This document shows positions 28,064 through 32,077 of a DNA stretch of 34,443 bases, piece after piece. The notes under the pieces were generated by a model. The model saw only the letters and a list, made by a program, of their open reading frames with translations, searched no databases and was not told the DNA's origin. The position numbers were made by a program, and so were the translations under genes. Every line of letters starts with the position of its first letter. Within the stretch, counting starts at the first letter, position 1. This DNA comes from an uncultured Clostridia bacterium (GTDB lineage Bacteria > Bacillota > Clostridia > Christensenellales > CALMFG01): assembly GCA_937863465.1 (NCBI GenBank), contig CALMFG010000193.1:1-34443 (forward strand), written 5' to 3'.

Positions 28064-28975
28064 ATGAGAAAACTGATTGTCGAAAACACCCGCCGGGAGG
28101 GTATGTACCTGTCGGAATATATCCGCTTTGTCTATCCGCGCGCGTCGGAGGAGGCTGTTTTTCTCGGCATCCTGCGTGACGACATCTTCCTGAACGGCAA
28201 ACCTGCCGGTCAGGACGTCATCGTCCATGATGACGACGTCATTGAGATGAACCTTCTGTTTTTCCATCTGGGCCTCGCACCGGTTCTGGACATCCTCTAT
28301 GAAGACGAAAGCTTTATCGCGATTGAGAAGATGCCCGGGATTAAATCCTTTGACGAAAACCGCACGGGCGAAATCAATGTATACGACCTGGTTTTGGAAT
28401 ATATGCTCCAGAAAGGCGAGTATTCGGTGGATGCGCTCACTGTGCCCTACCTCTGCTACACTCTTCCCGAGAGCGCGGGCGGCATCCTGTTTATCGCCAA
28501 GCACGAAGCGGCCTACCGCTTTATCACCACCGCTCTAAGCCAGCGGCGCGTCAAGACCCAGTTTGAAGCCGTGGTCTTCGGCGGTCCGGTGTATGACAAG
28601 GGCGAAGAGTACCATTATGTGGATCCTTCGGGCAAATTCTTTTCCCGTCCCAAGGAGGACTGCGTCCCCTGCGCCACGCGCATCCATGTGCTGCGCCGGG
28701 CGGGCAAGTGCGCCACCTTACGGCTGGAGCCCATCACCTTCAACAAGGATCAGGTGAACGCGCATACGGCTTTTCTCGGTTTCCCCATCGTGGGCGACCC
28801 CGCCTTCGGCAACCGCCGGCTGAACAAAAAATACTTTGTCGATTATCAGGCCCTGTGGCTGAAACAGCTGAAATTCACGCTGGGCAAGGGCCATATGTTT
28901 GAATATTTAAATCAGGTGACCATCCGTCTGGACGATATGGTCTTCCCCAACAACATCACGCTGGAAAGGCAGTAG
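28064..28975 (+). CDS. RluA-family pseudouridine synthase-like protein, catalytic motif degenerate
   Basis: S4-like N-terminus, ALSQRRVKTQFEAVVFG and AHTAFLGFPIVGDPAFG match the RluA fold, but HRLDxxTSG reads YTLPESAGG. Confidence 0.8.
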   Translation: MRKLIVENTRREGMYLSEYIRFVYPRASEEAVFLGILRDDIFLNGKPAGQDVIVHDDDVIEMNLLFFHLGLAPVLDILYEDESFIAIEKMPGIKSFDENRTGEINVYDLVLEYMLQKGEYSVDALTVPYLCYTLPESAGGILFIAKHEAAYRFITTALSQRRVKTQFEAVVFGGPVYDKGEEYHYVDPSGKFFSRPKEDCVPCATRIHVLRRAGKCATLRLEPITFNKDQVNAHTAFLGFPIVGDPAFGNRRLNKKYFVDYQALWLKQLKFTLGKGHMFEYLNQVTIRLDDMVFPNNITLERQ

Positions 28976-30775: not shown

Positions 30776-32077
30776 TCACACCCGCCATTTCTCGATAATC
30801 TGCGCCGCCGCTGTTTCGGCGTCGGTTTCGTTCGCAATCCGGCAGTGGGAAAACTTCTGGTAGAGCCCGATGCGCTCTTCATACAGTTTAAATACCGCCG
30901 ATTTGTCCTGCTTTAAGAGCGGTCTGGAATCCGCGTCCACATCGCCATATATCTGCTCCACGGGTCTGTCCAAAAAGAAGATGGCCCCTGTTCCAGCCAG
31001 ATGCTTCATGTTTTCATTGCGCTTCACCACGCCGCCGCCCGTGCAGACCACCGTATTGGTTCGGTTTGCCGCAGCCGCCGCCGTTTGGAATTCGATATCC
31101 CGAAAATGTTCCTCGCCTTTCGCGAACAGGGCGTGGATATCACCGAAACGCGCCTCAATATCCGCGTCCATGTCGAAGAAGTCCATGTTCAATTGCTCGG
31201 CCACTAGCTTTCCCACTGTGGTCTTGCCGCTGCCCGGCATGCCGGTGATAACGATGTTCGGCTTGTCTTGGCTGAGACTGTTGTAGATTTGCCGTGTCAG
31301 CCACCCGTCCATCGCCCGTCCCTGCCAAATCTCCTCGGCTTTCATGGCCTGCGCCGCCAGCATATAGAGTCCGTTCACCGCAGGGATGCCTTTCGTAATG
31401 GCGTCCTGCATCAGCCGCGTTTGCGCAGGGTTATAGATTAAATCCACCAAAGTTTTGCATCCGTTCAAAGCGTCCGCCGGGATGGGCGAAACGCCTTCTT
31501 TCGGGTGCATCCCCACCGGCGTGGTGTTGACCAGAATTTTGCCTTCCAAATTTAAATCCACATAGCCAGCGGTCTTAAACGGCACAGCAAAAGACTTGCC
31601 TGAAAAACCCCTTTCGGCAGATTCGGGGCTTCTCGAAACCAGCGTGATGCTTCCGGCCGCGTGATCGCTAAGGTACGTCAGCACGCTGTTGGCCGCACCG
31701 CCCGCACCTAAGACCACAAAATCTTCACCGGCTGTATCGATGAAGTTGGCCGCCAGCAATGCCCCAAACCCGTCATAGTCGGTGTTAAAACCTTTCAGGG
31801 TTTTTCCTTCGCGCAAAATCGTGTTGACCGCGCCGATGCGCGCCGCCCCGTCCGAAAGCGCGTCCAGATATTGAATCACTTCCCTCTTGTAGGGGATGGT
31901 CACATTGATACCGTCGTACGCGCCGTCCTTGAAGGATTGCATAAAATCGGCGAGTCCTTGCGTCGGCACTTCGATGAGGCCATAATTGCCGTCAACGCCC
32001 AGCGCTTTTAACGCCATATCGTGAATGGCCGGCGACAGGCTGTGCCCCAGCTTTTCGCCCAGGAGCCCCAGTTTCAT
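30776..32077 (-). CDS. Fused shikimate dehydrogenase - shikimate kinase
   Basis: 433 aa; AroE part GEKLGHSLSPAIHD, NVTIPYKREV, NTDYDGF, VLGAGGAANSV; AroK part ITGMPGSGKTTVG, DMDADIEARFG, HFRDIEF, CTGGGVV, DSRPLL. Confidence 0.95.
   Translation of the reverse strand: MKLGLLGEKLGHSLSPAIHDMALKALGVDGNYGLIEVPTQGLADFMQSFKDGAYDGINVTIPYKREVIQYLDALSDGAARIGAVNTILREGKTLKGFNTDYDGFGALLAANFIDTAGEDFVVLGAGGAANSVLTYLSDHAAGSITLVSRSPESAERGFSGKSFAVPFKTAGYVDLNLEGKILVNTTPVGMHPKEGVSPIPADALNGCKTLVDLIYNPAQTRLMQDAITKGIPAVNGLYMLAAQAMKAEEIWQGRAMDGWLTRQIYNSLSQDKPNIVITGMPGSGKTTVGKLVAEQLNMDFFDMDADIEARFGDIHALFAKGEEHFRDIEFQTAAAAANRTNTVVCTGGGVVKRNENMKHLAGTGAIFFLDRPVEQIYGDVDADSRPLLKQDKSAVFKLYEERIGLYQKFSHCRIANETDAETAAAQIIEKWRV

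Follow-up and report, generated by a model that had tools for sequence, protein, structure and literature searches.

Can a member of the RluA family of pseudouridine synthases that has lost its catalytic aspartate still serve the cell and, if so, in what capacity? The question is posed by a gene (Table 1) in a stretch of 34,443 nucleotides (hereafter, the window) from an uncultured Clostridia bacterium, which we take to belong to the order of Christensenella (Christensenellales). An earlier note on this DNA had described the encoded protein as a probable pseudoenzyme, kept for a function such as RNA binding.

Table 1. The RluA-type gene of the window and the parts of its product
Feature	Position in the window	Strand	Evidence or remark
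Degenerate RluA-family gene	28064..28975	+	open reading frame (303 codons + stop), translation, profile and structure matches
S4-like N-terminal domain, residues 1-63	28064..28252	+	alignment, secondary structure of the model, charge
Pseudouridine-synthase-fold domain, residues 74-295	28283..28948	+	TIGR00005/PF00849, AlphaFold model, Foldseek
Segment MLQKGEYS, residues 114-121	28403..28426	+	clade-wide GEY-type stretch preceding motif II
Motif II site YTLPESAGGILFIAK, residues 132-146	28457..28501	+	expected HRLDxxTxGLxxxAK
Position of the active-site Tyr, now Phe167	28562..28564	+	alignment
Motif III site FNKDQVNAH, residues 226-234	28739..28765	+	expected GRTHQIRAH

The fold and the active site

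The homology of the window protein to the RluA enzymes can be taken as certain. The TIGR00005 profile matches it across 273 residues (E=1.1e-22) and, together with a 66-row tree, this match points to common descent with the canonical RluA members. The scores are low, namely, 80.8 bits for TIGR00005 (curated cut-off 192.7) and 23.3 bits for PF00849 (E=8e-5; curated cut-off 26.8), the latter cut-off being exceeded by the orthologues L063, L066 and L068 with 61-71 bits. Sequence matches in the PDB are chains of RluC and RluD (E~1e-7). The AlphaFold model of the window protein is confident (pLDDT 90.9, with 94-98 in the motif blocks; pTM 0.79); its best Foldseek matches are RluD, RluA and RluC (E from 1e-16 to 3.4e-19, the latter for RluD), and it superimposes on RluA (2i82) with a target-normalised TM of 0.76-0.80, so that the proposed retention of the fold-defining parts is borne out by an RluA/RluD fold. 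The S4-like N-terminus that had been suggested along with it is seen in the alignment and in the model only; its basic residues are mostly lost, and no match to the Pfam S4 profile (PF01479) was listed for the window protein up to E=10, a search whose HMMER filters discard the bulk of very weak matches. Sub-threshold matches to the S4 profile were obtained for relatives, namely, for L066 (E=0.04) and for L148 (E=0.0018). Thus, the window protein shares with RluC, RluD and RluA of E. coli (TIGR00005, PF00849, COG0564) the fold and the domain order, S4-like followed by catalytic, but differs from them in lacking Asp, Tyr, Arg and most of the basic positions, and in scoring below the profile cut-offs.

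The losses in the active site are extensive. In motif II, HRLD is replaced by YTLP, so that His and Arg are gone and the catalytic Asp has become Pro135, with a CCC codon (28466-28468) that is at least two base changes away from an Asp codon. In motif III, both Arg residues of GRxHQIR are gone (Asn227 and Asn232), the latter replacement removing the catalytic Arg. The earlier reading of both motifs was exact to the letter; it overlooked, however, a third catalytic loss, that of the active-site Tyr, which is now Phe167. The Tyr and the motif III Arg are both present in 42 of 42 canonical rows, and, outside the clade described below, the Asp is conserved in each of the 111 homologue rows that were inspected, some of which come from overlapping loci. 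Enzymes of the TruD type have Phe at the place corresponding to the motif Tyr; therefore, the change of Tyr to Phe would not by itself be sufficient evidence of inactivity.

The replacements are concentrated where catalysis takes place. Among the 42 canonical relatives, 14 columns are invariant, and half of these belong to the catalytic motifs; the window protein has lost six of these seven (R133, D135, Y167, H229, I231 and R232, with Q230 retained), as compared to one of the seven elsewhere (Y248, now Phe; D81, K89, G140, G173, G244 and D245 are retained). At a conservation threshold of 80%, the losses amount to 10 of 11 catalytic columns versus 14 of 37 others (Fisher p=0.002, with the catalytic set picked from the motifs by the analyst and the columns treated as independent). 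A catalytic Asp or other acid relocated within the active site was sought by family alignment and not found. That RluA-family enzymology requires the Asp follows from the behaviour of the D144A variant of RluC, which forms no pseudouridine (PMC11194073). With the Asp, the motif Tyr and the motif III Arg all replaced, the window protein very probably cannot isomerise uridine, as judged from its sequence and the established mechanism. The claim of a pseudoenzyme is, then, supported: the fold columns have been retained, and the frame, which starts with ATG and is intact over 303 codons exactly as claimed, has stayed open despite the divergence.

A sequencing error was considered as a source of these replacements and appears unlikely, since the change from Asp to Pro takes two base changes and several more catalytic positions are altered within an intact frame.

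Erosion of an orthologous family in Christensenellales

We use the label RluA3 for one RluA-type pseudouridine synthase of the order. In the 66-row tree, which was built without the motif columns, the window gene falls into a clade of 24 rows (support 99/97), where it pairs with family f21 with the same support values. The clade comprises single-copy orthologues from three Christensenellales families, Christensenella included; the loci of four genomes (G030, G053, G074 and G093) are of the same group as, or identical at the gene to, named Christensenella records. In families f21 and f31, the RluA3 gene was found in 23 of 23 genomes, one each at E<=1e-40; G030 alone carries an additional, weaker match (L153), which is a different paralogue. 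No second, intact copy was found in the window genome; apart from the window protein, PF00849 is represented there by three enzymes, of which one is YlyB/RluD-like, one is a second protein of the RluA type and one is RsuA/RluB-like.

Only two of the 24 rows (L048 and L049) keep both HRLD and the motif III Arg, and the sister row L009 is fully canonical. The remaining rows are eroded to different degrees and in different ways. Specifically, motif II reads YPLD or YNLE in family f21, FKLD in Christensenella, where the Asp is kept and His, Arg and Tyr are changed, and YRLD, HKLD or DVLD elsewhere in family f31; it is NVLP (CNVLP), NILP or NLLD in genus g87, and QRLD or GDID in g109. By parsimony, the state of the Asp changed four times (to Pro and Glu), one of which may be a regain, a count that depends on a within-clade branching order that is only partly supported; the Tyr changed five times, the Arg of HRLD three times, and the motif III Arg twice. 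As a side observation, in two g87 genomes a canonical HRLD enzyme occupies the dnaB-GNAT locus considered below (L148:5761-6714 in G163, and L049 in G228), with the other members of this genus having the LP form.

It had been proposed that a family alignment could reveal whether the substitutions are conserved and mark a distinct clade. The clade is indeed distinct; the substitutions, in contrast, are graded and repeated and form no single fixed set. As read from the sequences, the window protein is the extreme of this erosion and not a member of a group defined by one fixed substitution. Accordingly graded, the claim of catalytic death is strongest for the window protein, for L008 and for the LP group of g87, whereas the many relatives in which the Asp is retained may be active. 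Outside the eroded clade, the window protein is closest to other RluA-type enzymes of Christensenellales and Oscillospiraceae with HRLD or NRID (such as L009, L016 and L070), which resemble it in length and architecture but keep the Asp, the Tyr, the Arg and the positive charge. In addition, Met114 is found in 22 of 22 degenerate clade members and in L048, as compared to none of the 42 canonical rows.

There appears to be hardly any record of naturally dead pseudouridine synthases from bacteria: the open-access literature searched yielded no natural dead enzyme of the RluA family besides the eukaryotic RPUSD3. This vertebrate (human) mitochondrial protein has lost the Asp (to Gly) and has no detectable activity (PMC12716993). 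The two proteins are alike in belonging to the RluA family, in the natural loss of the Asp and in the retention of the gene, the inactivity being observed for RPUSD3 and predicted for the window protein; they differ in that RPUSD3 is a eukaryotic paralogue that exists beside the active RPUSD4, whereas the window gene is a bacterial, single-copy, eroded orthologue that has lost the Tyr and the Arg as well. Hence, the window protein might be viewed as a bacterial counterpart of RPUSD3 in type, not in descent, with no orthology claimed. Among Firmicutes, YhcT and YjbO of Bacillus subtilis (COG0564), whose known targets are positions 1940/1944/1946 of 23S rRNA and 31/32 of tRNA (PMC7408541), are RluA-type proteins that could be functional counterparts of the ancestral RluA3; unlike the window protein, they are active enzymes.

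The importance of this family lies in the fact that one set of orthologues spans the full series, with intact HRLD (L048, L009) at one end, FKLD and YPLD in between, and YNLE and YTLP at the other end, in gut bacteria that are related and have in part been cultivated (Christensenella hongkongensis, C. intestinihominis). Therefore, the question of whether it is the modification or the presence of the protein that matters becomes directly testable. Since the eroded versions replace the standard copy in these related gut bacteria, a job other than RNA editing is most likely for the window protein, and the label "RluA family pseudouridine synthase", when assigned automatically, probably misdescribes the most eroded members of the clade. 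The wider pattern of erosion around the window gene is beyond the reach of single-sequence reading.

Charge, constraint and the possible function

Considering both the retention of the fold and the clade-specific positions that are kept, the window protein has quite likely retained a non-catalytic role. The explanation that we favour as a whole, with a probability of about 0.6, is that the window gene is a single-copy RluA3 orthologue that has turned catalytically dead and kept a role in binding or assembly. Such a protein would most likely be a binding or assembly factor, which is a guess ranked over its rivals; it could take part in maturing whichever RNA or ribosomal particle the ancestral enzyme served, or it could contact a protein partner. 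The contact could be made via the conserved residual surface (R161, R162, P202, R206, R252, N254, K256, G274 and P295) and not via the classical basic RNA groove, most of which has been dismantled. Most of these surface positions are also found in the canonical relative L048 and, therefore, provide no proof of a new function.

The state of the groove can be judged from the charge. If a column is counted as basic when at least 60% of the canonical rows have a basic residue there, 22 columns qualify; the window protein keeps five of them, the lowest number among the 24 clade members, as compared to a canonical mean of 18.4 (minimum 12) and to 10-15 in the other clade members. Its net charge is -5 (pI 5.9) versus a canonical mean of +11.2 (pI 9.2), the mean for the degenerate clade being -2.8, with +9 and +10 for the intact L048 and L049. 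The N-terminal domain (residues 1-70) has a charge of -4 versus a canonical mean of +4.8, with the basic columns replaced at 15, 22, 34, 37, 39, 42 and 47 and kept at 46; the catalytic domain carries -1 versus 0 and +5 in the same-genome paralogues, a smaller contrast than that with the canonical rows. More generally, basic proteins make up 43 of the 46 intact rows and non-basic ones 19 of the 20 degenerate rows, although an independent-contrast test for the coupling of motif loss with charge loss could draw on only three independent pairs and gave no significance.

These data bear directly on the strongest of the alternatives, namely, that the dead enzyme still binds the ancestral RNA through its S4-like and catalytic domains, acting as an RNA chaperone, a placeholder or a competitor. 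A catalysis-independent role is known for TruB. Such roles are also on record for RlmB and RlmKL (PMC11194073), and the window protein has kept the fold, an alignable S4-like N-terminus and four arginines (R161, R162, R206 and R252). Yet its five basic positions are fewer than in any canonical row, and its net charge has the opposite sign, so that this alternative appears rather unlikely; retained RNA binding, the function that the earlier note had offered as an example, is weakened by the charge data and not refuted by them. A generic chaperone role is not to be assumed, either, because dead RluC D144A fails to rescue the assembly of the 50S ribosome (PMC11194073), a result that makes a non-catalytic role in assembly less likely for the family in general.

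A second alternative, that the gene is decaying after the modification became dispensable, with constraint relaxed and the intact frame a mere remnant, is improbable. The graded, repeated erosion across the clade would agree with it, as would the length of the terminal branch that leads to the window row (1.36 in the 66-row tree), which suggests that some relaxation of constraint is likely. However, in 300 simulated runs of neutral decay down to 40% identity, in which only substitutions were modelled, stop codons accumulated to a mean of 7.5 and a minimum of two, as compared to zero in the window frame. Furthermore, six of the seven invariant non-catalytic columns have been kept, the composition by codon position is normal (GC of 0.587/0.33/0.719, the same as in the adjacent genes), and none of the 23 genomes in the two related families lacks the gene. 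In pairs of Christensenella orthologues, dN/dS is about 0.03-0.10, which indicates strong purifying selection; the ratios are rough, most pairs having a dS close to saturation, and they pertain to Christensenella and not to the window gene itself, whose own family consists of one genome.

Genomic setting and the acetyltransferase

The window gene has a setting of its own. On one side, the divergent def-fmt-rsmB-rlmN genes lie 207 bases from its start; on the other, a capA-like gene (PGA_cap, PF09587; 28987-30309) begins 11 bases past its stop codon, and the two may be cotranscribed. This context of def, fmt and capA recurs at no orthologue locus examined. In family f31, the RluA3 gene comes after dnaB and a GNAT acetyltransferase gene; the order dnaB-GNAT-RluA3 is found in G110 and G163 and, with genes between, in Christensenella. 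In five g87 genomes (L149/G138, L050, L054, L055 and L056), a degenerate RluA domain encoded directly after dnaB is fused to a C-terminal GNAT-like domain. The fusion in G138 (L149:5278-6828) is a frame of 517 aa with matches to PF00849 (E=4.9e-13) and PF13673 (E=8.5e-12); the other four, with frames of 460-487 aa, were read by eye, Pfam having been run for G138 only.

The gene order and the fusions could be taken to mean that, in this clade, the RluA3 fold has become a targeting or scaffold module for the acetyltransferase. As an account of the window gene this is very improbable: the same order occurs in G163, where the HRLD enzyme is intact, so that the linkage to GNAT is older than the loss of the active site, and in the window genome dnaB-GNAT is located close to the end of a contig (C185:81-1881; L157, L169) without RluA3 beside it, the window gene lying elsewhere, next to def and capA. 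For the order at large, one can tentatively envisage a broader course of events, possible but on balance doubtful, in which Christensenella and related families converted an ancestral enzyme of RNA modification into a protein that is non-catalytic and has a new, largely non-RNA role, losing the active site stepwise and repeatedly, and one genus fused it to an acetyltransferase that it may direct.

Finally, it is hardly credible that the window protein is still a pseudouridine synthase that works through Glu136, which adjoins the lost Asp, through Asp229, which lies within motif III, or by an unusual mechanism: both acids are also found in L047, where the standard Asp is present, and, therefore, do not look like swaps, which is why they were rejected as substitutes, the Tyr and the Arg are lost too, and the RluA family requires the Asp, as seen with RluC D144A.

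Two further observations concern neighbouring genes. At three Christensenella loci (L065, L066 and L067, at ~10.8-13.3 kb), the degenerate gene stands tail to tail with a second gene of the RluA type, which is intact; next come a gene for a SAM methyltransferase (its counterpart in the window genome matches PF10672) and an ispE-like gene. In the window, positions 30776-32077 hold an apparent aroE-aroK fusion (shikimate dehydrogenase and kinase), recognised by reading the sequence only, which clusters with aroQ-, pheA- and aroC-like genes.
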